Origin: Natrialba magadii ATCC 43099
GTDB taxonomy: Archaea > Halobacteriota > Halobacteria > Halobacteriales > Natrialbaceae
Assembly (NCBI RefSeq): GCF_000025625.1
Contig: NC_013922.1
Span: 868,001 to 932,000, forward strand
Direction: 5' to 3'
DNA: 64,000 bases
The notes below the pieces were generated by a model, which was not told the origin of the DNA, searched no databases, and saw only the letters and a program-made list of their open reading frames with translations. A program made the position numbers and the translations under genes. The stretch's first letter is position 1, and each line of letters begins with the position of its first letter. This document shows, one piece after another, positions 832 through 45,672 of this stretch.

Positions 832-1148
832 TGGTTTCTACCCGCGTCTACCGGCGGTGCGGACTAAAGTCGTCGGTATCCGGCACTCCCGGCCACCGGA
901 TCGGAACCGTAACAGTAGATAGTAGCACGGCTTTTATTCAGGACCTGAATTGGAAATTAATCGGAGCAATTCGGTCACTTCACGTGCATATTGACCGTTA
1001 GAAGATCTCTCACCTCAAATAAACTCCCTTAACAGTTCACCAGACCTTGGAGAAAACATAATGACTGGAAGCTAAATTCTATTGGGTAATGTTTAGTCAG
1101 TATGAGAGAATCATTCGGCAGAAAGACAAGTGTGATATGAGAATTCAA
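832..1148. other. AT-rich intergenic region, left edge of island
   Basis: No coding region is supported. Base composition falls sharply from about 930 onward compared with the GC-rich aminotransferase gene, marking the left edge of an atypical stretch that continues to the IS element at 3470. Confidence 0.6.
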
Positions 1149-1724
1149 CTATATATTCTGGTCATCGCGATAGAGATCAAATTCGACAGCTACCGGTTCA
1201 GTTGTTCCAAAATACACAAACCGATACCGTCCAGATGAAAGTGAGGGACACACAGTGAGTACGTCATCATCATCAACGAGTCCACTATCAGTCAATTCGA
1301 ACGTCCATTCGTATACTGTGCCAGGTCGATGACGACGTTCGACATCTATGTAATCCATGTTCCCTTCGATCACACCACGTACTTCTTCCCATCCTGCATC
1401 TGTATATACAAGAAAATTATAGTGGTCTCGGGTCGCGGTGTATTCTGAAGTGAAGGATGTGTTTCTGAGAGTAATCTCTACAGTATCACCATATCTGAAG
1501 GATGTGTCATTCACACGCAACGAGAACGATCCTGCATCACCTACTTCTCCTGTACCTCGGTTTGAGAGCCTATCAAAATCGTTGTCGTTACAATCAAGTG
1601 ATGATGGGACACTTTCCGGTTCACGACTCGGTGAGATTTCACCACTAGCCAATATTTGTAGGCAACCACTAAGACCTACAATAGCAACTCCAGTTGCACT
1701 CGCAAGATATTGTCGCCTATTCAT
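1149..1724 (-). CDS. Tat-exported lipoprotein of unknown function
   Basis: 191 residues starting MNRRQYLASATGVAIVGLSGC: a twin-arginine motif, a hydrophobic stretch and a lipobox (LSGC) ending at Cys21, so the product is probably exported folded and lipid-anchored outside the cell. I chose the start at 1724 because a TATA-like element (1747-1752) lies about 25 bp upstream, as expected for a leaderless haloarchaeal mRNA. The mature part looks like an all-beta Ig-like domain (YGDTVEITLRNTS, TVYEWTFELTDSG), a form seen in small haloarchaeal surface lipoproteins. Codon use is AT-rich, unlike neighbours to the right. The function is unknown. Confidence 0.75.
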   Translation of the reverse strand: MNRRQYLASATGVAIVGLSGCLQILASGEISPSREPESVPSSLDCNDNDFDRLSNRGTGEVGDAGSFSLRVNDTSFRYGDTVEITLRNTSFTSEYTATRDHYNFLVYTDAGWEEVRGVIEGNMDYIDVERRHRPGTVYEWTFELTDSGLVDDDDVLTVCPSLSSGRYRFVYFGTTEPVAVEFDLYRDDQNI

Positions 1725-1813
1725 GCATAATACATGTATTCCAGAGGATAAATGTTTATCCCCTGTTGGGGAACTATATGTATGGCTGTAAAATTGTCTG
1801 TGGAACAATTTAA

Positions 1814-3178
1814 TTAAACAATTGTATAATCCATTTCCTCTTCAATATCACCAATATAGTTACCGACTGATCTAGGGTGGGTACCCTGCGTAAGCGATGC
1901 TCTATGAAGTCCGACAACACGCATATTGTCAATGTCTCCATCATTATAAAAATAGGGTCCTCCTGAATCGCCATCACCATCTTCTTGGTCATTCGCTCTT
2001 ATCAGTTCAATCCTCATTGGTGTAACATTATCATTAATTTGACCCACTGAGTGTTCACATCGACCAGTGCGTCGTCCTTGTTGACAAATGTTTCCTGTAT
2101 ATTCCTGATCCTTGAGCCAGTCCTCTCCGACAATTTCAGATCCTAATGCTCCAGAAAACCCACCACCAATGTCAGATAGTTGGCTCCCAGCATTTACCCC
2201 ATCTTCCATTTCAATAAATGCGATATCCCAATCGCCATCGTGTTTAATTTCACCCACTTCGCCAATTTTATCATCGTCATATTGATATACAGATCGGCCT
2301 TCACCATCACTTGATGATTCATCATCAGTATCATATGTGATGTGACCATTTGTCAGAAAACCAACATCCTCTTCACTGTCCCGTTGGATACGAGGCCCGA
2401 GCGAACCACTACTGCTGTATCCGAACCAACCGGACTCCTCAATCGAAATACTACAACCAGTTCCCCGTAAACTATATCCATAATCATAACTCTCTTCGTA
2501 AAACCGTTCGTCAGAACCGTCTGTATTGTGACAGTCTTCATCAGAACATGCATCATTTGCTACAATATTGCTTTCGAATCTAACTGGAATGTCATCACGA
2601 GAAGCATTTTCAACAGATTCATGACCAATACTTCCTTCAGTAGTTTCAGGTACTTTCCTCATTATTTCGCTTAAATCAATATCGGGGGATCTAACACCGT
2701 CCAAAGTTTTGATTTCATCTATTTCTGATGGGTCCATATCCTTCTCTCCATCAATCGAACCAGGAACAGATATATCATAATTTACAACTACACTATATTC
2801 TTCGTTCTTACCTCTCCCATTGACATCCACACTAGATGAAATTAATTTACTATCCTCAATAGCATCAATCTTCTTCTGAATCCGTTCTGCTGCATCAAAT
2901 GCTGTTTCAACAACAATCCACTTGTCCCGTGGAATTGTATAATAGTTAGCCACCCGTTCGCCCGGCCTGTCTGGGAAAGGTGGATTATTGTATTCCTCTG
3001 CGTTCGATAAGTTGTAGTATTCCACTCTCGGAACTCTATCAGTGGGATCATCCGTCAATTCTTTGAGTTCTTCTTTCGAAATGTTCGCTGCAACACCTCC
3101 AGACATTCCCAACTTTGCAAGCGTGTCCATGAACCGTCGGCGTCCCATCAGCGATAATTTATTAGATTTTCCTCTCAT
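1814..3178 (-). CDS. Trypsin-fold (S1-like) serine protease
   Basis: 454 residues. The C-terminal half carries a readable catalytic triad: His279 in FLTNGHITY, Asp318 in GDWDIAFIE and Ser405 in GDGDSGGPYF, in the usual order. The N-terminus has RRRFMDTLAKLGMSGG at residues 13-28, a Tat-like segment but with a weak hydrophobic core, so export is uncertain. Residues about 30-200 are an unassigned acidic region that could be a propeptide or regulatory domain. Cysteine pairs near 211/216 and 365/374 may form disulfides, which would suit an extracellular enzyme. A TATA-like ATTTAAA about 25 bp upstream supports the start. It is AT-rich like the adjacent lipoprotein and is probably horizontally acquired with it. 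Confidence 0.8.
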   Translation of the reverse strand: MRGKSNKLSLMGRRRFMDTLAKLGMSGGVAANISKEELKELTDDPTDRVPRVEYYNLSNAEEYNNPPFPDRPGERVANYYTIPRDKWIVVETAFDAAERIQKKIDAIEDSKLISSSVDVNGRGKNEEYSVVVNYDISVPGSIDGEKDMDPSEIDEIKTLDGVRSPDIDLSEIMRKVPETTEGSIGHESVENASRDDIPVRFESNIVANDACSDEDCHNTDGSDERFYEESYDYGYSLRGTGCSISIEESGWFGYSSSGSLGPRIQRDSEEDVGFLTNGHITYDTDDESSSDGEGRSVYQYDDDKIGEVGEIKHDGDWDIAFIEMEDGVNAGSQLSDIGGGFSGALGSEIVGEDWLKDQEYTGNICQQGRRTGRCEHSVGQINDNVTPMRIELIRANDQEDGDGDSGGPYFYNDGDIDNMRVVGLHRASLTQGTHPRSVGNYIGDIEEEMDYTIV

Positions 3179-3469
3179 ACTATAGCTTCAGTATACTAAT
3201 ATTTAAACTCTTTTATTCAATATTACTTTTTTGATAATGCTGTTACATACAGTAAGGGTTTAAAATAATTTCTCGGGTGAATAATGAGGTTGTGTCGGTA
3301 AAAAGCCAAAAACAAGATCACAACCAATTAGTGATTTTGACACTGACTAGTTTCGGTACTTCCCGACCGGTGTGAGAGCCGAAGATAAAGCGTTGTTCTG
3401 GTTGGGAAAACGTCCGGTTGAGAGGATGTGTTCATCATACCTCAACCACATGGTGTTCTTTCGGATTCG
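3179..3469. other. AT-rich intergenic region, promoter of the protease
   Basis: It holds the protease promoter near 3199-3208 (read on the minus strand) and otherwise no supported gene. Composition returns to GC-rich near 3350. The arms ttcgg (3352) and ccgaa (3379) form a short imperfect inverted repeat that may be the end of an older insertion. Confidence 0.5.
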
Positions 3470-4212
3470 GCACTGTCTAGTTCAGCACCTTCTCAGCTGG
3501 CGTTCGGCCATTGAGCGCTTGATTCGGCCGATTGTGGTTATAGTGGTGCCTGAAGCGTCTCAGCCAGCGTCTTGCGCTGGTCGGACTGTCCCGCCAGAAG
3601 GAGTGAAAGCGGTCGATCCGCATCGAGACAGTCTGAAACCACTTTTCAACGTGGTTTCGCTCGCTGTAGTTGAGCTGACCGCTCAAGTCGTGACGCGCGA
3701 GGGCAATCAGATAGCCGCCAGCATCGACGAGAAACTCCGACTCGTTGAGATCGTGTTTCTCCGTAAGACGGTGCAGGAACGCCGCCGCGGGGTCAGTCCC
3801 GCGGCGGCTGTAGACGTCAATTTCGAGCAGTAGCTTTGATTCTGTGTCGATCGCGGTGTACAGCCACTTTTTCTCGCCGTCTACCTCGATTTGTTTCTCA
3901 TCAACCGCGACCCGCGACGGCTGCGCCGTCGGCGGGTCACTCTGCACTTCCGAGAGTTTGTGTGTCCAGTTCCAGATTGCGCCGTGAGAACGGTCAATGC
4001 CGAGTAATTCAAGAACTACGACGACTTCCCGAACCGACAAGCCCATCGAATGGAGACGCACCCCGAACACCCTGACGGGTGTCGGGGTGCGCTTGTTCTC
4101 CCAAACCTCATCACAATCCACGTCTAAGGTCTCTCTGAGCAGGTTGGCGAGTTGCATTGGACACTTCTCGCCACTACCTGTTCGTTCCTCAAACTCACAT
4201 CTAGACAGTGCC
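3470..4212 (-). mobile_element. IS6-family insertion sequence, complete, 743 bp
   Basis: The ends are perfect 12-bp inverted repeats: GGCACTGTCTAG at 3470-3481 and its complement at 4201-4212. They enclose one transposase gene whose stop codon falls inside the left repeat, a compact layout usual for haloarchaeal IS6 elements. The flanking 8-mers (3462-3469 and 4213-4220) do not match, so there is no target duplication; this fits an old insertion or one followed by recombination. The right end lies 31 bp upstream of the TATA box of the hydrolase gene at 4272. Confidence 0.85.
3477..4157 (-). CDS. IS6-family DDE transposase
   Basis: 226 residues from ATG 4157 (MQLANLLRETL), the usual start for this family; an upstream in-frame start at 4277 would lie outside the IS. 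It has an N-terminal helix-turn-helix region and a DDE catalytic core: D86 in VAVDEKQIEVDGEKKW, D145 in FLVDAGGY and E171 in NHVEKWFQ. The C-terminus HHYNHNRPNQALNGRTPAE is characteristic. The frame is intact, so the element may still be active. Confidence 0.93.
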   Translation of the reverse strand: MQLANLLRETLDVDCDEVWENKRTPTPVRVFGVRLHSMGLSVREVVVVLELLGIDRSHGAIWNWTHKLSEVQSDPPTAQPSRVAVDEKQIEVDGEKKWLYTAIDTESKLLLEIDVYSRRGTDPAAAFLHRLTEKHDLNESEFLVDAGGYLIALARHDLSGQLNYSERNHVEKWFQTVSMRIDRFHSFWRDSPTSARRWLRRFRHHYNHNRPNQALNGRTPAEKVLN

Positions 4213-5274: not shown

Positions 5275-8662
<3,388 letters not shown>

Positions 8663-8666
<4 letters not shown>

Positions 8667-9872: not shown

Positions 9873-10940
9873 CTACTCGAGTCGGTATCGTAACAGCGCC
9901 GCAATGCCACCGAGGTTCGAGAGCTGTTGGCCAGGCGGGAACTCACTCGAGAAGACGGTGACCTCGCCGCCTTTCTGTTCGGCCGTGCGCACGACCTGGT
10001 CGACGTCGATGGCCCACTCGCCGTCGGGGCCGCGCTCCTTGCGCAGGCGGTCGTCGAGGATGAGCAGGCGCTCGATCGCGCCGAACTCGGCGGCCTGCTG
10101 GACCTCCTCGGGGCCATACGCTGCCTTCGCACCCTGTGCGATGCGTTCGGTGAGTTCGTCGATGTACTCGGCCTCGCTCTCGATGCGCGTCTCCTGTTGG
10201 ACGTCTGCGACGGCACCGCGCTTCAGGACTTCGTGGACGCCCCGGTCACCGACGCTCGCCGTGTCGACCATCGTGATCTTCTCGGCGACTTCGGGCTCGT
10301 TGTCCTCGAGGTACGATCTGGCGTCCTGTTTCGTAAAGCCCGGTCCGGCGAGGATGATCGCGTCCGCGTCCTGTCGCCTGAGTACGTCGCCGAGTTCGGC
10401 GAACAGCTCTGAGCGTTCGCGGGCGTACTCCCCCTTTCCGGTGGGGCCGGTGATCGTGGCTCGTTCCTCGGTGCCGTACTGGGCGACCGTGTGCACGTGG
10501 GCCTGTCCTTCCTCGACGGTGGCGATGGCGACATCCGGGTTCTCGGTTGCCTCCTCGGCTTCCTCGAGACGGGCTTCCTGGTCGGGTTTGAAGCGCTTCT
10601 CGATCGAGAGCTCTTCGCGTTCCTCGACGTTCAGGGTGTGGTGAAAGCCGAGTTGGTCCTCGCGCGAACAGGCGACGATCTCGCCGCCGACGCGCAGTCG
10701 GTTCGCGAACTTGTGGAACTCGATGTCCTCGACGGCGATGGCGACCCACATGTGCTCGCGTTCGCCACCGGTATCTCGCATCTGATCGTCGTTACGCTGG
10801 ATCCGTCGGGTCGTATCGCCGGCAACGCGGTCGCCGGGCTCTAGCACGTACTGGAGGTGCCAGAGGTCGTCGACGCTCTCGGGGACGACGGTAACCCGCT
10901 CGCGTCCGCCGTCGAGCGGTTCCCGGTCTTTGATTTGCAT
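9873..10940 (-). CDS. pelA: mRNA surveillance protein pelota (aPelota)
   Basis: 355 residues, the normal archaeal length. The N-terminal Sm-like domain is recognised by the [15 protein letters not shown] and [10 protein letters not shown]-like blocks (here [10 protein letters not shown]). The central domain (about 135-265) and C-terminal L7Ae-like domain (about 270-355, [14 protein letters not shown]) follow the eRF1 fold. As in other pelota proteins there is no GGQ hydrolysis motif. It binds stalled ribosomes with an empty A site and, with aEF1-alpha and ABCE1, splits them. The rqcH gene 2.1 kb away acts in the next step of the same process. Confidence 0.95.
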
Positions 10941-11143
10941 ACGGTGCTGTTCTCGGGGTCACGGTAAGTGCGTGACGGATCGGCCGGTGCAACGATAGTC
11001 ACGCACCGTCCAGGAGAGAAATCGGTGACAGGAACTATCTCACCCGAGTCGGTCGGTTCGGTGTAGAGTGGACAAATGTCGGAGTGGTTGCGTCCAACAG
11101 GGTTAGGAAGCGCCGTTATTACTTCTGTAGGCCTATCTCCCGT

Positions 11144-11704
11144 ATGAGTACGGAATATACGACTCGACTCGAAGACTTTGGTACTCGATCGCTGCTGACA
11201 CACGCCATTATGGCTGTGGCGTTCGTGGGCGCGATTTTGGGCGGACTGTTCGTCGATGGACAACTCGGGCTCGTCGCGTTCGTTTCACTCCTTGGCTTTG
11301 CCGCCGGTGCATGGGTCGTGCAGTCGATTCACTCGCTCGGAAACGCCAGAACTGACGATACCTATACTGGGATTCTGTCAGTGTTGCTCGATACGACCGG
11401 CGAGCGGACCTACCGTGGTCTCGATACGGGGAGACTCGCCCGACTACTTACACTCATCGCAGCCGTTACCGCTGTCTCGCTGCTGACTGCCGGACAGGTC
11501 CTGACCGGCATGCTGGCTTCGATCGGTATCGTCGCAATCGGCAGTGTCGCACTGATCACTGCGATGGTTGGTTTTCTGATCGCGCTCGGATCGTCCTACG
11601 ACGCGTCCGAACGAAAGCTGGCTATGGAAATCGACCAAAACCGCGATGAGGGGGGCGCAGAATCATTCGACGACCTGTCCGACACTGAGGACTCCGTCCA
11701 GTAA
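11144..11704 (+). CDS. Haloarchaeal membrane protein of unknown function
   Basis: 186 residues from ATG 11144 (MSTEYTTRLEDFGTRSLL). A TATA-like TTATTA at 11116-11121 lies about 25 bp upstream, so the transcript is probably leaderless. Two hydrophobic pairs (about 20-65 and 102-150) give four membrane helices; the tail is acidic. No motif suggests a function. Confidence 0.75.
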   Translation: MSTEYTTRLEDFGTRSLLTHAIMAVAFVGAILGGLFVDGQLGLVAFVSLLGFAAGAWVVQSIHSLGNARTDDTYTGILSVLLDTTGERTYRGLDTGRLARLLTLIAAVTAVSLLTAGQVLTGMLASIGIVAIGSVALITAMVGFLIALGSSYDASERKLAMEIDQNRDEGGAESFDDLSDTEDSVQ

Positions 11705-11766: not shown

Positions 11767-12732
11767 TCAGGCGTGAGCCAGATAGTTTTCCGAACACCAG
11801 ACCCACTCGTTCTCCGATGGAACGTACAGCCCCCACCAGGTGATGTCATCACACTCCTCGGGGCCGTTCATCACCTCGGCCTGGGTTCCCTCGGGCAGCG
11901 TCAACACGACATCGTCGTTGAGACACGGCTGTTCGCGCCCGTTCAGATCCGTCGTCGTGACGACCTGGTCGCCGTCCTGGAACTCGTCGCCGCCACCACC
12001 ACCGCCACCGCCACCGTCCTCCTCTTTCACCAGACTCTCGAAGTGATCCATATCCCAGTCCGGATACGGACAGGTACGACCACCGTGGTGGAAGCTACTG
12101 CAGTCGCCATCCGGCACGTGCGTGTGGCCGATGATCCCTCCCGACTCGTTCTGGATGCAGGTGTTGCTCGTATAGAACTCGAGTGGGATGTCGTGCATGT
12201 CCGCAATGCAGCGTACGAGTTCGGCGGAAGACTCGTAGCAGGCGTCGGAGATGCCGTTGTCGTCGAACCACTCGTGTTCGATACCGATTGAGCGATGATT
12301 CGCGATGGATCGGGCGTGCCAGGCCGCGCGGTCGTGGTGAACCAGCTGGTCGACGTGACCTGCCTCGGGGCCGTCGGTCCAGTCGTAGTTCTTCACGAGG
12401 TAGTGAGAACTGACGCCCGAGTCCGAACTGGTGAGGGTGTTGAGCGCGCCCTGATATGCGCCGGCAGTGACGTGGATGACAATCCAGTCGATGCTATGGT
12501 CGCGCGCGCTGTGGTTCGCCGCCTCGACCCAGCGGTCCGCGGCGTCGCACTCGGTGTGTGAGGCTGCTGTCCGATCTACCTGGGTTCCGAGTATCGTCCC
12601 GGTCCCGGCGGCAACACCGGTCGCCTGGAGAAACGATCGCCGCTTCCAGTTGCTATGGCTGGTCGTCTCTCGGTCGTCGGTACTCGAGTGCTGTTCGCCG
12701 TCCGGATCGTGTGTGGTGCAATCAAGGCACAT
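11767..12732 (-). CDS. Tat-exported N-acetylmuramoyl-L-alanine amidase-like protein with SH3 tail
   Basis: 321 residues from ATG 12732; a GTG 21 bp upstream is the other choice, but a TATA-like element near 12762-12768 favours 12732. A Tat motif (KRRSFLQATGVAAG, 30-43) lies in a long polar leader. Residues about 82-232 resemble amidase_2 / T7-lysozyme-type domains: IVIHVTAG (H87), IEHEW, GHTHVPDG (H203) and RTCPYPDWD (C221), consistent with a His-His-Cys zinc site. A nine-glycine linker (about 240-248) leads to a C-terminal SH3-like domain (about 252-321). Haloarchaea have no peptidoglycan, so the substrate may be another organism's wall or a different amide. Confidence 0.8.
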   Translation of the reverse strand: MCLDCTTHDPDGEQHSSTDDRETTSHSNWKRRSFLQATGVAAGTGTILGTQVDRTAASHTECDAADRWVEAANHSARDHSIDWIVIHVTAGAYQGALNTLTSSDSGVSSHYLVKNYDWTDGPEAGHVDQLVHHDRAAWHARSIANHRSIGIEHEWFDDNGISDACYESSAELVRCIADMHDIPLEFYTSNTCIQNESGGIIGHTHVPDGDCSSFHHGGRTCPYPDWDMDHFESLVKEEDGGGGGGGGGDEFQDGDQVVTTTDLNGREQPCLNDDVVLTLPEGTQAEVMNGPEECDDITWWGLYVPSENEWVWCSENYLAHA

Positions 12733-13032
12733 AGAAAGACTATCACACAACACAGATACTAATAACTATTGGATATTTGGGTGTCGAATTTCGGTTACGG
12801 CCGCTAGCACAGGTAGCGAAACAGAAGTCGAAAGTCGGAGGGAAGGTCGCCAGTGCGTGCAGACACCTCCATACGCTCCGGCTGATCGAACAGGTCACCG
12901 GCACAGTCGGAGATAGAGCGTGGGCACACCAGAACTGACCAGAACTGACTGGAACAACCGCATCAGAAACAGTCTCGACGACAGTTCAGGGCCGTCTTGT
13001 GTCGCTGTGTCTCGAGCGGACGGCAGAGCGGT

Positions 13033-15216
13033 CTATTCCTCTGCAATCCGGCTCCCGCCCGGCGGCATGAAGTGCTGAATACGGTCAGGGCTGGCGATCT
13101 TCCGCACGAACGTCTCGTCTTCGAAGCGGTCACGGAAGCGACGGTACAGTCGTTTGGCCGCGTCGGCCTGCGCGTACCGACCCGGCTCGAGTTCGATCGT
13201 CGTCTCCGCGGTGCCCTCGATGGCCGACGGCGGGCCGCCGATGACGCGAGTGTAGGGCTCACACTGGATGCCGACTGCGGCACCGACGGGGGTGTCGCGG
13301 TAGTAGGTTCGGTCGCCGCGGATGGCGAACCCGCCTTTCTCCAGGTACTCGCCGCTCTCCGGTGTCTTGGTCACCTGATCGGAGTCGACAGCGTAGACGT
13401 CACCCGCATAGCGGCCGTCCTTCCAGACCGAGGAGTACGAGACTGCGAACTGTGCGGCCTCCTCGATGCTCGACTCCGGCAGTTCGATGTCCGAAGAGGA
13501 GGCCTCGCTCGGATCGGTCGCCTTCAGCACCGTGACCGGACCGCCGTGTGCCTGAGTGTGAAGTACCTTGTCGCCGGGTTCGAGATACTTCTTCACCAGT
13601 TCCTCGTTCTGGTCTGCGTCCCGGCCGCCGATCACGAGGTAGCCGTCGCTGGTGTGGAACCAGCGGAACCGGTCGAACCAGGGCTCGTTCTCTCGAATCG
13701 GAATGGAGGACTCGGCGAGCCAGTCGCGGTCGTCGTCCTCGTCGTCTTCGTCCTCGTCGCCCGCGCCCGGTTTGCCGTCCTGTTCTTCCCACTCGTCGCG
13801 GCGCCGCTTCGCATCTTTCAGGTCCTCTCTGGTGTCTTCGATAGCCGCGAGCGCACCCTCTTTTTTCTCCGCGACGCGTTTCGCCTCGGTGTAGAGGCGG
13901 TCCGCGTTCTGCTCGACGCCGTCGTGTGCGACGAGTTCGATGTACTCGCCGTCGACGTCGACGGTGACGATTCCCTCGCTGCCGTCGACGTCGATGACTG
14001 CCTCGGCGGCTTCGATGCCCTGCTCGGCACCGTCCTCGAATCGCGCCTCGATTTCGTCCCAGGGCCGGTCCTGCGCGCGAGCCTCCTGTATCGTCGAGAG
14101 GATGTCGTCGACGAGGCCGTAGTTGGCGTAGAGCAACTCGGCGTTCTCGCGCAGGTTCTCGGCCTCCTGCTCGAAGCCTTCGATCGCACCCTGCTGTTGC
14201 TCGATGATCCGCTCGTGTTTGGCGATCTCTTCCCCGAAATCGGGGCGCTGGCTCGTCGGATCCGGCTCCTCCTCGTCTTCCAGTTCGAGGTGGAAGAAGT
14301 AGTCGTCGAGCGCGTCGAGGAAGGTGTCGTACGGCTCGCCGTCGAAGCCGGCTTCGTCGTGCTCCTCGAGTGGGAACGGCGTGACGTCGACGACGCGGCC
14401 GGTGTCGCCATCGTCGTTGGCGCGGTCCTCGTTGTTGTCGTCGTCCGCACTCTCGCTTTCGTCCGCCGACTCCCGATACAGTCGCGAATTGAAGTTCCCG
14501 TTCCGGATATCCAATGCGAGCCGTTCGATCGCCTCGTAGAGCCTGTCGTAGGTCTCCTCGTCGGCGTCGCCGATATCCATCGCCTTCTCGACGCCAGCGC
14601 GGGTACAGATCTCCTCGGCGTACAGCCCACCGAAGTTGAGCTGTGTCGCGAGGGTTCGCACCACGTCCGTATCCGACTCCTCCATCTCGTGAGCGAAGAC
14701 CTCTCGGGAGACCGTCAGCGGATTCGTCCGCGTGTCCGGGAACTCGTATCGCGATCCCGGCACGACCGTTCGTGACTTGAGCCGCACTGTCTCCAGACAG
14801 TCGATTACCTCGTACTCGCCGTCCGTGACTGCGACGTTTCCTTGTCCGAACAGCTCGACGATAAGCCGGGTCGTCCCGTCGTCGCGCTCGAAGGTGAACT
14901 CGAGTATCCGGTCGAACTCGTACTGTTCGACGCCGGCGAAGTCCGCGCCGGAGAGTCGGTTGCGCAGCATCATCGCGAACTGTGGCGGTCGGCCGGGGGC
15001 GTCCGGCACCCGCTCTTGGGCGACCGTGTGGGCTCGTTTGACCTCGCCGACCTCGAGCAGCAGTTCGATGCGGCCGCGGTCGAAGTCGCGCATTTTGAGG
15101 CGGACGAGGTCGTCGCCGTAGCGATAGGCTTTGTCGACCTTCGCGCCCTCGTAGGTGCCGAACTCGCGGACGAGGGCGGCGAGATCGACGCTCGTCAGCT
15201 CCCGCTTTGGATCCAT
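13033..15216 (-). CDS. rqcH: Ribosome quality control protein RqcH (NFACT family)
   Basis: 727 residues. NFACT-N is seen in MDPKRELTSVDLAALVREF, KVDKAYRYGDDLVRLKMRD, MMLRNRLSGA and VELFGQGNVAVTD. A coiled-coil region (about 340-480) carries the middle segment. The NFACT-R domain starts near 510 with WFDRFRWFHTSDGYLVIGGRDA and includes HGGPVTVLK. The family binds the 50S subunit carrying a stalled peptidyl-tRNA and, in bacteria, adds C-terminal alanine tails; archaeal members are thought to act alike. Its nearness to pelA groups two ribosome-rescue factors. Acidic insertions (e.g. DEDEDDEDDD) are haloadaptations. Confidence 0.93.
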   Translation of the reverse strand: MDPKRELTSVDLAALVREFGTYEGAKVDKAYRYGDDLVRLKMRDFDRGRIELLLEVGEVKRAHTVAQERVPDAPGRPPQFAMMLRNRLSGADFAGVEQYEFDRILEFTFERDDGTTRLIVELFGQGNVAVTDGEYEVIDCLETVRLKSRTVVPGSRYEFPDTRTNPLTVSREVFAHEMEESDTDVVRTLATQLNFGGLYAEEICTRAGVEKAMDIGDADEETYDRLYEAIERLALDIRNGNFNSRLYRESADESESADDDNNEDRANDDGDTGRVVDVTPFPLEEHDEAGFDGEPYDTFLDALDDYFFHLELEDEEEPDPTSQRPDFGEEIAKHERIIEQQQGAIEGFEQEAENLRENAELLYANYGLVDDILSTIQEARAQDRPWDEIEARFEDGAEQGIEAAEAVIDVDGSEGIVTVDVDGEYIELVAHDGVEQNADRLYTEAKRVAEKKEGALAAIEDTREDLKDAKRRRDEWEEQDGKPGAGDEDEDDEDDDRDWLAESSIPIRENEPWFDRFRWFHTSDGYLVIGGRDADQNEELVKKYLEPGDKVLHTQAHGGPVTVLKATDPSEASSSDIELPESSIEEAAQFAVSYSSVWKDGRYAGDVYAVDSDQVTKTPESGEYLEKGGFAIRGDRTYYRDTPVGAAVGIQCEPYTRVIGGPPSAIEGTAETTIELEPGRYAQADAAKRLYRRFRDRFEDETFVRKIASPDRIQHFMPPGGSRIAEE

Positions 15217-40607: not shown

Positions 40608-42995
40608 ATGACAAACGAAAATTCATTCCGCGAAAAGGGACGCGCAGTGTTCCTGGCCGCACTTATGGTCATGTCGGTTGTCGCTATGTCCGCTGCCTTC
40701 ACGGGCGCGGTCGCAGCGACCAACCACGATGACCTTGACGAACAGGGTGCTGATGACTACCTCGATTCAGCCAGCACCTTCTGGGAAGGACAGCACCTCC
40801 TCGTCCACTATGATGACGATGACTACGCGGACGACGATGAGTTCGAACTCCGCGATGTAGATGACAACTCGGCTGGCTCGCTCGTCGACCAGTTCTCGCT
40901 CGATGACGGCGCGTACGTTATCGACACCGAGGGCCTTGATGGTAACTACGTCATCGAGGACGACGATGGTAACATCGCTAATATCAACGATGGAGAACTG
41001 ACTGACTCTGAATCGAGTGATGTTGACAACAACGACTTCGAGATCGCTCAGCAGGACTTCGACGCTGAGTTCGAATCCGACGAAGTCGCTGACAGTAACT
41101 CCGACTTCGAAGTCGAGTTCGACTCCATCCGTAACCAGTACGATGTCAACGTCTCGTCTGACGACCTCGACGAGGACGACCTCGACGAACTCCTCGACGA
41201 GATCGGCCTGTCCAACGAGGTTGACGACGAGAACGAAGTTGCAACTCTCAAAGACGTCTCTGACGGTGCTTACTCGCTGAACTTCACCGACATTGACGCC
41301 GGCGAATACGAGTTCAACTTCGATGTTACGGACACGGCCGCTGAATCCAGCGCCACCGTGAACGTGACTGAGTCTGCTGCTGCAGACCTGAGCTTCGCCG
41401 AATCTGACTTCACTGAAGAGCGCAGCAACATCGCTGCAATCGACATCGAACTGCAGGAGACGTCCGATGCCCACGTCCAGATCGGTGAAGAGGACGAAGT
41501 CAACTACGAGGTCCAGCTCCAGGTTGAGGACGGCAGCGACGACGGTAACGTCACGCTCCTCGTTGACACCACTGAAATGCACACCGCTGACGACAGTGCA
41601 TTCTGGGCGGCTCACGAGGAAGATGATGTCTCCGTTGAAGATTACGAAGCCACATCCGACGTTCTCGAGGGAGGCGACTACACGCTCTCGCTCGCGAACG
41701 ACGCTAGCTTCGACGACGAGCACGACACGGCGTTCTTCACGCTGAACGACCGCACTGAGCTCGCTGACGATGCCGTCTCGATCTACACGGCACCAGATGA
41801 CGTCGAAGACTTCAGCGATTACAACGACACGACGGTCACCTCGACCGACTACATCGCACAGAACGACACGCTCCTGGCAACTGTCGACACCACCAGCCTC
41901 TTCGCGTACTTCGACGACGCTGACGAGTTCAGCGACGTCGACGACACGCTCGAGCTGGCGATCGTCGAACAGGACCCAGGTCCAAACGCTGACCCAGTCG
42001 TCTTCAACGCAACTGACAATGACTTCGATGTTGACGTTGTCGACGCCAACCAGTCCGCAGGCCAGCTGATCTTCGCTGTCGACTACAGCGAGGCTTACGA
42101 TGGCTCGGACGAATTCGAGCTGGAGACTGACTACGATCTCGAGTTCACTGTGAGCGACGAGAACGCCTTCGCAGAGGACAACGAGTCCGCTGCAAGCGAA
42201 TTCGTCGTTGAAGAGCGCGAACTCGAATGGGACGACACTGCTGAAGAAGTTCCGAACAGCGACAGTGCAATCGTGACGGGTGAGACTAACGTCGCACCAG
42301 GTACGGAAGTCACGACCCGCGCTCGCTCGACCGGCAACTTCACCACTACCAGCGACACTGTTGTCGAAATCGACGACGACGGTGACCGGTACTTCGAAGC
42401 TGAGTACGACCTCAGCGACTACGCAGCAGGTACCGAGTTCACGCTCACCGCAAACGAGGACGAAGAGTCGGCAGAGATCGACTCCGTGCTCGTTGACGCT
42501 GACGAGGCAATCATCACGGTCGACGCTGACGCACCATCCGACGCTGAAGTCGGTGAGGACGTCACGCTGGACGTGACTATCAGCAACACTGGTGGCACCT
42601 CTGACGAGGTTGACATCGGTGTTGTCATCGCCGGCGAAAACGTCGATGAAGTGACCACTGAACTCGAATCTGAGGGCACCTGGTCCAACAGCTACGAGTT
42701 CACGGCTGATAGCGAAGGTGACGTCGAGTGGAGTGTCACGGCAGGCGACTACGACGAGGAGTCTGGTGTGACCACCTTCTCCGACGACGACAAGTCTGAC
42801 GACGACAAGTCCGACGACGACAAGTCCGACGACGACGGTGCTGACGACGACGGCGCAGCCGACGACGGCGCTGACGACGACGGCGAAACCGACGACGGCG
42901 AAACCGACGACGACGGTTCGCCTGGCTTCGGTGTCGCAGTCGCACTCGCAGCACTCCTCGGCGCTGCAATGCTGGCTCTGCGCAAGCAGAACTAA
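40608..42995 (+). CDS. csg: S-layer (cell-surface) glycoprotein
   Basis: 795 residues, extremely acidic. The signal peptide KGRAVFLAALMVMSVVAMS followed by AAFTGAVAA resembles other haloarchaeal csg proteins. The body has beta-sandwich modules and many Asn-x-Ser/Thr sites for N-glycosylation. Near the C-terminus is a (DDDKS)n/(DDGAD)n spacer, then SPGFGVAVALAALLGAAMLALRKQN-type ending: a PGF motif, a hydrophobic helix and basic residues, recognised by archaeosortase A, which swaps the helix for a lipid. It should form the cell envelope lattice. It is shorter than some csg proteins, and which of several S-layer paralogues dominates cannot be told here. Confidence 0.88.
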   Translation: MTNENSFREKGRAVFLAALMVMSVVAMSAAFTGAVAATNHDDLDEQGADDYLDSASTFWEGQHLLVHYDDDDYADDDEFELRDVDDNSAGSLVDQFSLDDGAYVIDTEGLDGNYVIEDDDGNIANINDGELTDSESSDVDNNDFEIAQQDFDAEFESDEVADSNSDFEVEFDSIRNQYDVNVSSDDLDEDDLDELLDEIGLSNEVDDENEVATLKDVSDGAYSLNFTDIDAGEYEFNFDVTDTAAESSATVNVTESAAADLSFAESDFTEERSNIAAIDIELQETSDAHVQIGEEDEVNYEVQLQVEDGSDDGNVTLLVDTTEMHTADDSAFWAAHEEDDVSVEDYEATSDVLEGGDYTLSLANDASFDDEHDTAFFTLNDRTELADDAVSIYTAPDDVEDFSDYNDTTVTSTDYIAQNDTLLATVDTTSLFAYFDDADEFSDVDDTLELAIVEQDPGPNADPVVFNATDNDFDVDVVDANQSAGQLIFAVDYSEAYDGSDEFELETDYDLEFTVSDENAFAEDNESAASEFVVEERELEWDDTAEEVPNSDSAIVTGETNVAPGTEVTTRARSTGNFTTTSDTVVEIDDDGDRYFEAEYDLSDYAAGTEFTLTANEDEESAEIDSVLVDADEAIITVDADAPSDAEVGEDVTLDVTISNTGGTSDEVDIGVVIAGENVDEVTTELESEGTWSNSYEFTADSEGDVEWSVTAGDYDEESGVTTFSDDDKSDDDKSDDDKSDDDGADDDGAADDGADDDGETDDGETDDDGSPGFGVAVALAALLGAAMLALRKQN

Positions 42996-44648: not shown

Positions 44649-44873
44649 ATGACCACGGTCTCGGCAAAAATTCCAGATGAGATGAAGGAGGAACTCGAAA
44701 AGGAAGATATCAACGTTAGCGAGGTTATCCGTAACGCGCTCGAGGAGGAAATCACCAAGCGCCGGCGCGAGAAACTTCGACGGGATGTCGATTCCCTTCG
44801 AGAGAAGATAGATGACGGTGTTGAAACTGACGAGATCGTTGGAGCGGTTCGTGAAACCCGCCAGGAGAATTAA
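44649..44873 (+). CDS. vapB: VapB-type antitoxin
   Basis: 74 residues: MTTVSAKIPDEMKEELEKE, NVSEVIRNALEEEITKRRRE. A ribbon-helix-helix-like N-terminus with a charged helical tail. The stop overlaps the toxin start (TAATG), a typical VapBC layout, so both are translated from one mRNA. Confidence 0.87.
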   Translation: MTTVSAKIPDEMKEELEKEDINVSEVIRNALEEEITKRRREKLRRDVDSLREKIDDGVETDEIVGAVRETRQEN

Positions 44874-45298
44874 TGTCTGACTATCTCTTTGACGCAAGCT
44901 CGGTGGTAGAACTTCTCATTGGAGAACGCGGCGTCAATGTGGATATTAGTATCCTGTTCGATGAGTATCTGCTCGATTTGACGATGTACGAGGCGGCGAA
45001 TGCACTCTGGAAAACCGGCCTTGCTCACGATAATCTAACTGAGTCTGAATTAGAAGACGCTGTTACTATTCTCTCACGACTTGGTACAGAGGTTCGACTC
45101 GAGACCGTGAGTAACGAAACCCTCACTTCAACGATGGATGTCGCCCAATCAAACGGACTTACGTTCTATGATGCGGCGTATCTTGCAACCGCAGAGCGTA
45201 CTGACCTCACCCTGGTAACTGAAGATAGCGCGCTTCGAACGGCCGCACGTGAGCAAGAGATTCGAGTAGAGAGCGTGCGTACGGATGGCTCACTCTAG
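44873..45298 (+). CDS. vapC: VapC-type PIN-domain toxin
   Basis: 141 residues. PIN acidic residues: D7 (YLFDASS), E40 (TMYEAANAL), D100 (TFYDAAYLA) and D118 (LVTEDSAL), all four present, so a working Mg2+-dependent RNase is likely. VapC toxins cut tRNA or rRNA; the antitoxin just upstream neutralises it. Confidence 0.9.
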   Translation: MSDYLFDASSVVELLIGERGVNVDISILFDEYLLDLTMYEAANALWKTGLAHDNLTESELEDAVTILSRLGTEVRLETVSNETLTSTMDVAQSNGLTFYDAAYLATAERTDLTLVTEDSALRTAAREQEIRVESVRTDGSL

Positions 45299-45380
45299 CT
45301 CTCACGTTCCACTCTGACAGCTGAAAGTCAGGATACAAAGCGGAGTTGCGTGGTGATTTACTGCACACCCTGCGAAGCAG

Positions 45381-45557
45381 GCCGGTGGAGTGGATTGTGA
45401 ACTACGCCGAGACTGCTCGCTTCGCTGTGCGTCTCGTCTCGTTCAAATCCTCCAGAACAGACATTCGGCTCGCGAACTTGCTCACCGAAACGTAACCGGT
45501 GGAGGGATTGTGAACCACGGTCGCAGCGAAGCTGTTCCCTGATTCAAATCCCTCCAC
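45381..45557. repeat. Decayed copies of the tRNA-Thr 3' end
   Basis: GCCGGTGGAGTGGATTGTGAAC (45381-45402) and CCGGTGGAGGGATTGTGAAC (45496-45515) each repeat the last 20 bases of the tRNA with one inserted base or small changes, in the tRNA's orientation. Opposite-strand echoes GTTCAAATCCTCC (45441-45453) and GATTCAAATCCCTCCAC (45541-45557) pair with them as imperfect hairpins. The layout suggests scars of integration at the tRNA 3' end. Confidence 0.7.
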
Positions 45558-45598
45558 TGCTTGCTTTGCTCCTCACGTAGTGTTCGTCGCAAAAGGCA

Positions 45599-45672
45599 AG
45601 CCGGTGGAGGGATTTGAACCCTCGACCTAATCCTTACGAAGGATTCGCTCTGCCAGTCTGAGCTACACCGGC
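45599..45672 (-). tRNA. tRNA-Thr (CGU anticodon)
   Basis: Read on the minus strand: acceptor GCCGGTG pairs with CACCGGC, D-arm GCTCAGACTGGCAGAGC, anticodon stem AATCC/GGATT with loop TTCGTAA (anticodon CGT, reading ACG), T-arm GAGGGTTCAAATCCCTC. Discriminator T at 45599; CCA is not encoded. No intron. Confidence 0.95.

Follow-up and report, generated by a model that had tools for sequence, protein, structure and literature searches.

A predicted Tat-exported, SH3b-tailed amidase of the haloarchaeon Natrialba magadii and the hydrolases that share its tail module

A single-copy gene in the 4.44-Mb genome of Natrialba magadii very probably encodes a secreted amidase acting on bacterial peptidoglycan, judging from the sequence and modelled structure of its product. 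The gene lies in a 64,000-nucleotide stretch of DNA, which was analysed as a whole and is called the window here (Table 1). In the mechanism that we propose, the folded protein would exit the cell via the Tat route, its SH3b tail would anchor it on the bacterial wall, and a zinc centre of H87, H203 and C221, together with E152, would cleave the amide between N-acetylmuramic acid and the stem peptide, as in a zinc N-acetylmuramoyl-L-alanine amidase. An archaeon without peptidoglycan would be immune to such an enzyme, making an immunity protein unnecessary. The likeliest use would be the lysis of bacteria in brine, either as competitors or as food.

The premise that the host lacks peptidoglycan was upheld: its closest named relatives are Natrialba (94% identity to Natrialba sp. 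SSL1 and 81–83% to three other Natrialba species), a family search of the genome found no peptidoglycan transpeptidase PF00905, and the window encodes an S-layer-type protein whose DUF7827 and PGF-CTERM, typical of haloarchaeal S-layer glycoproteins, support an S-layer envelope. N. magadii, a haloalkaliphile, comes from Lake Magadi, and the main text of its genome paper mentions neither amidases nor peptidoglycan (PMC3403918). The initial annotation of this stretch regarded a peptidoglycan amidase in such a host as an oddity; its view of the host stands, although the surprise is reduced by a 2025 report that archaea encode peptidoglycan hydrolases, among them Tat-exported haloarchaeal enzymes with which bacteria are killed (Strock et al., PMC12352652).

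The open reading frame (ORF) lies at the coordinates first assigned to it, with an in-frame GTG at 12753 as a possible alternative start, and its product consists of a Tat signal, an Amidase_2 domain, a glycine linker and an SH3b tail. The position of the TATA-like element suggests that the gene has its own promoter and a near-leaderless transcript. The protein is acidic (pI 4.4; Asp and Glu together 17.8%), as expected of a protein secreted by a halophile. A Tat signal had been read from the sequence at the outset, and the motif RRSFL is indeed present at residues 31–35 with a hydrophobic stretch, its arginine pair being kept in every relative with an aligned N-terminus (51/51), although Tat profiles score slightly below cut-off (NCBIfam TIGR01409, E 0.02). 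Cleavage probably takes place near residue 58 (RTAAS), and because the N-terminal region holds no lipobox Cys, a free secreted protein is likely. The protein is thereby predicted to carry the signal peptide expected of archaeal modular peptidoglycan hydrolases. The cytoplasmic stub ahead of the Tat signal starts, at residues 1–5 (12718–12732), with the pattern M-C-L-[DEN]-C, and so with a conserved CxxC, in all Natrialba-type copies.

Table 1. Positions in the window of the amidase gene, its predicted domains and residues, and neighbouring or related features
Feature	Position	Strand	Basis or remark
Amidase ORF	11767..12732	−	ATG 12732 to stop 11767; 321 aa
N-terminal region and Tat signal peptide, residues 1–58	12559..12732	−	Sequence; RR conserved
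Twin-arginine pair R31-R32	12637..12642	−	RR in 51/51 aligned N-termini
Amidase_2 catalytic domain, residues 64–235	12028..12543	−	Pfam profile, PDB profile, model matches
H87, zinc ligand 1	12472..12474	−	Invariant 56/56
E152, catalytic Glu of AmpD/AmiD type	12277..12279	−	Invariant 56/56; aligns with IGIE of AmpD/AmpDh2
H203, zinc ligand 2	12124..12126	−	Invariant 56/56
C221, zinc ligand 3	12070..12072	−	Cys 26 / Asp 30 among 56 relatives
Poly-Gly linker, residues 240–248	11989..12015	−	Sequence; species differ in length
SH3b domain, residues 249–321, likely cell-wall-binding module (predicted)	11770..11988	−	Homologous tails, profile, model
TATA-like TTATTAGT	12758..12765	−	33 bases upstream of ATG
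eRF1-domain protein gene	9873..10940	−	Conserved flank of amidase site
Small membrane-type protein gene	11141..11704	+	Present at empty sites too
NFACT (Rqc2-like) protein gene	13033..15216	−	Conserved other flank of amidase site
S-layer-type glycoprotein, DUF7827 + PGF-CTERM	40608..42995	+	Domain matches

Amidase_2 (PF01510) is the sole Pfam family recognised in the ORF (residues 79–223, E 1.6e-20; 74.2 bits against a cut-off of 26), confirming the amidase_2-like domain first noted. Profile searches of the PDB returned AmpD (1e-13), AmpDh2, AmiD, XlyA and further endolysin amidases, PHROG matches were mostly to endolysins, and an NCBIfam search gave a weak match to AmpD. Structural comparison, which the initial annotation had proposed as a check, was run on an AlphaFold2 model of residues 58–238 and gave Z scores of 18.2 for AmpD (rmsd 2.3, 151 aligned), 17.1 for the endolysin PlyP100 and 12.1 for T7 lysozyme. 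In a profile alignment, H87, H203 and C221 fall on the metal ligands of AmpD/AmpDh2-type amidases, in line with the suggested His-His-Cys centre of the T7 lysozyme kind; R219, a basic residue two ahead of the third ligand, replaces the Lys of AmpD and T7 lysozyme, which counts against the proposed activity. By fold, ligands and profile, the product is predicted to be an exported zinc amidase of the Amidase_2 type.

Conservation bears on whether the domain is a working enzyme. In 56 distinct amidase cores from haloarchaea, H87, H203, E152 and P222 never vary, and position 221 holds Cys in 26 and Asp in 30, both being known third metal ligands in the Amidase_2 superfamily; a loss of zinc ligands in homologues, named beforehand as the observation that would speak against a hydrolase, was sought, and ligands and catalytic Glu were intact throughout. 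Between Natrialba-type species, dN/dS was 0.03–0.06 for the amidase domain and 0.06–0.21 for the SH3b tail, a strong purifying selection that points to a functional gene. PGRP folds are also among the structural matches of the model, as might be expected of a pseudo-enzyme or a peptidoglycan sensor resembling the non-catalytic PGRPs, an option raised at first; given the intact ligands and the selection on the gene, however, we regard it as very improbable. Non-catalytic PGRPs have lost the Cys ligand.

The AlphaFold2 model of the whole protein was middling (mean pLDDT 66.1, with low confidence in residues 1–59 and the linkers), so the tail was modelled separately, which gave an SH3b fold at pLDDT 96.5. 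The SH3 tail of the initial annotation thus gained support even though it is invisible to Pfam: a search with the last 73 residues gave no SH3_3 match even at E=10, but the homologous tails of relatives match SH3_3 (PF08239). Against the PDB, a tail profile matched the lysozyme of phage phiSM101 (E 2.4e-7) and, more weakly, other cell-wall hydrolases, and among the top structural matches of the tail model are the phiSM101 endolysin (Z 10.7) and several wall peptidases of the NlpC/P60 type. Eukaryotic SH3 domains match the model too, at lower Z, so that an SH3b fold by itself is no proof of wall binding. On homologous tails, profile and model together, we class the tail as a predicted module of the wall-binding type (SH3b).

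The same module accompanies other hydrolases in haloarchaea. A search with the tail profile gave matches in 46/391 Halobacteria genomes; the profile was seeded from the SH3 domains of these enzymes, and the survey therefore leans towards them. Among the best 15 candidates per genome, at least 35 proteins besides the amidases carry the module, with M23 (22), lytic transglycosylase (7), glucosaminidase (3) or GH18 (1) domains as partners and none recognised in four, two proteins holding two partner domains; all 35 keep the twin arginine. Another SH3-type hydrolase was present in 19/50 genomes with the amidase versus 4/341 without it (Fisher p 2e-15, kinship ignored). Some of these genes stand in tandem clusters (glucosaminidase, M23 and amidase in L060; transglycosylase, M23 and amidase in L057) or in pairs (transglycosylase with M23 in L183 and L186; amidase with M23 in L009), and in two lineages (L015/L016 and L030) amidase and glucosaminidase are parts of a single chain. 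Six distinct relatives have the amidase fused to PG_binding_1, and the tree of the amidase clade holds at least four changes in which the SH3 module was exchanged for PG_binding_1 or lost.

Enzymes for four peptidoglycan bonds that use one binding module and one export route point to peptidoglycan as the substrate, as does PG_binding_1, which amidase relatives have in common with Woldo and Danwoldo, the Tat-exported M23 and glucosaminidase enzymes of the haloarchaeon Halogranum salarium B-1 (PMC12352652). Peptidoglycan would be the one substrate accounting for all these associations together, and the initial reading of a secreted cell-wall hydrolase is strengthened by these domain partners. 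We lean, with some reserve, towards a haloarchaeal peptidoglycan-degrading arsenal built on a shared SH3b module, in which domains for four bonds are swapped onto a Tat-exported chassis and of which the N. magadii gene is a member. If true, the tandem clusters could allow some species to dismantle a bacterial wall fully. Family searches of the N. magadii genome itself found no companion M23, PG_binding_1 or glucosaminidase enzymes, and an amidase on its own counts against the proposed role.

Several proteins with the SH3 module have unusual partners. Two (L002:889-3414 and L065:7699-10314) join a DUF900 alpha/beta hydrolase, Amidase_2 and four SH3 copies in one protein. The GH18 chitinase-type domain, found with two SH3 copies in L199:1094-2797, stands alone among the recognised partners in not being a typical cutter of peptidoglycan. 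Two SH3-type Tat proteins (L196:1997-2755 and L197:1576-2379) have a common C-terminal domain (DDLARVITSEASISETPARTAVGF...) without a Pfam match, which by association is a candidate for a new wall-cutting domain; their assignment as SleB-like hydrolases was dropped, Pfam support being absent at any threshold.

The amidase itself is patchily distributed. Amidase_2 was detected in 50/391 Halobacteria genomes, representing 20/86 genera, and in 10/393 genomes drawn phylum-wide, seven of the ten being haloarchaea; so patchy an occurrence speaks against a function in the cell's own envelope. In the tree, the 70 haloarchaeal amidases all fall on one side of a branch with an SH-aLRT of 99, with the bacterial sequences, mostly from Actinomycetota, opposite, and the nearest bacterial catalytic-domain relatives found are secreted Amidase_2 proteins of Actinomycetota (35–40% identity). 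The tree comes from a quick search, with midpoint rooting for drawing only and a bacterial sample drawn by one sequence pattern, and for these reasons does not fix the donor. A search of plasmid records turned up nothing closer than distant relatives from haloarchaea and from bacteria, mostly Streptomyces. Two amidase copies look broken, L011:1453-2095 and L050:8465-9184 (split over two frames; truncated), which suggests that the gene is being lost in some species. Amidase_2 matches of other kinds in L062 (G103) and L063 (G351) (partial; inside a 1369-aa frame) were not recovered by the family profile used here.

The 15-member clade that includes the N. magadii amidase has a long stem (1.06 changes per site), and its specificity may therefore have shifted. 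Together with the lack of peptidoglycan in haloarchaea and a fold that alone leaves the substrate unfixed, this stem is what would favour the initial alternative of a different amide bond, for example in the cell's own envelope, extracellular polymers or glycoproteins. We consider that alternative improbable: nearly all haloarchaea have S-layers but only 50/391 Halobacteria genomes carry the gene, the amidase is missing from otherwise equivalent sites in sister species, and the partner domains (enzymes for three other peptidoglycan bonds on the SH3 module, PG_binding_1 on the amidase) lead back to peptidoglycan.

Those sites lie between the eRF1-domain and NFACT genes, where the amidase gene sits in Natrialba and some other genera of the family. 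In four sister species (G370, G386, G149 and G076) the same neighbours stand 771–861 bases apart with no amidase between them, and the locus thus differs by the clean gain or loss of this one gene, with the neighbours conserved. No phage or mobile genes were seen adjoining the site, the loci of relatives included. Matches to PHROG endolysin families (1.2e-10 for the best named one) raise the thought of a phage endolysin gene left over in the archaeal chromosome, but the flanks are housekeeping genes conserved across genera, endolysins do not characteristically have a Tat signal, archaeal viruses do not meet peptidoglycan, and tblastn gave no match in 50,697 phage records. An alignment-based scan of IMG/VR gave only seven distant matches (25–40% identity), and a single-protein scan of it found no relative of the amidase. 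With viral relatives so few and distant and the phage records without a match, a viral origin was set aside as hardly credible.

Elsewhere in the window, GC falls to 0.39–0.43 at 1000–3500, versus about 0.63 for the window, and this stretch looks recently acquired; it holds two minus-strand ORFs without a Pfam match, one (1149–1724) with a lipobox-like SGCL after a Tat-like start and the other (1814–3178) with a Tat-like MGRRRFMDTLAKLG. A PIN-domain (VapC-like) ORF lies near tRNA-Thr in a region of lowered GC (44873–45672), and an RND-type transporter has a run of TETETDTDETT repeats at its end (8449–8666).

If peptidoglycan is the substrate, the enzyme could serve either to lyse live bacteria or to digest the walls of already dead ones for amino acids and sugars. 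Scavenging, which we hold to be a tentative second possibility, fits the use of other secreted amidases and the presence of an LD-carboxypeptidase (S66) in the genome; however, the control species Haloferax volcanii also encodes an LD-carboxypeptidase, which is thus not specific. According to Strock et al. (PMC12352652), genomes with archaeal peptidoglycan hydrolases more often have the OppBCDF-MppA uptake set, and scavenging is kept as a possibility there. Against it stand Woldo and Danwoldo, two enzymes of the same kind that kill live bacteria, namely Halalkalibacterium halodurans; a catalytic mutant of Woldo no longer had this effect (PMC12352652). On balance we mildly favour the lysis of live cells, leaving the remainder to scavenging.

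According to Strock et al., about 5% of 3,706 archaeal genomes encode modular peptidoglycan hydrolases, as selected with a filter that requires a Pfam wall-binding domain (PMC12352652). The N. magadii amidase has a Pfam catalytic domain but no Pfam-recognised wall-binding domain, and with its divergent SH3b tail it would fail this filter, although it probably works like the modular hydrolases. Since haloarchaeal SH3b tails can lie below the detection limit, Pfam-based surveys can miss such enzymes. The main text of that survey names neither Natrialba, SH3-type haloarchaeal enzymes nor Amidase_2 (PMC12352652); the SH3b branch would extend beyond what that text covers. Our literature search on haloarchaeal lytic transglycosylases and haloarchaeal predation returned nothing relevant. 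The general concept was thus published in 2025, the year in which bacterial killing by such an archaeal enzyme was first demonstrated for haloarchaea; the N. magadii amidase is likely an added member, and the SH3b arsenal likely an extension. Very surprising before 2025, the finding is now of interest mainly for its breadth, clustering and soda-lake setting, and it brings a tractable and fairly widespread type of enzyme onto a very short list of archaeal antibacterial weapons or feeding enzymes. If active, such enzymes operate in saturated, alkaline brine, conditions under which ordinary lysins would not be expected to function, and sister species with and without the gene offer a natural pair for asking whether archaea hunt bacteria.

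Among known systems, AmpD, AmpDh2 and AmiD share the fold, two His ligands and the catalytic Glu with the N. magadii protein, which differs in having Cys in place of Asp as third ligand, in its predicted secretion and in its SH3b tail; AmpD is cytoplasmic and recycles anhydro-muropeptides. T7 lysozyme and the PGRPs have the H-H-C zinc centre and the fold, but neither a Tat signal nor an SH3b tail, and the N. magadii protein has the Glu of the AmpD branch in addition. The secreted Amidase_2 proteins of Actinomycetota (Phytoactinopolyspora, Streptomyces, Nonomuraea and Micromonospora) resemble it in the catalytic domain, whereas their N- and C-terminal regions are different and the haloarchaeal sequences group separately. 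In contrast to phage endolysins, the gene is not in a virus or provirus. The GH25 lysozyme of Aciduliprofundum boonei is an antibacterial wall hydrolase acquired from bacteria (Metcalf et al. 2014, PMC4241558), but with an unrelated fold, for another bond and in another archaeal lineage. Woldo and Danwoldo are likewise Tat-exported haloarchaeal hydrolases with a separate wall-binding module, bacterial-type domains and a patchy distribution, although they are M23 and glucosaminidase enzymes with two PG_binding_1 domains, whereas the N. magadii protein combines Amidase_2 with one SH3b.
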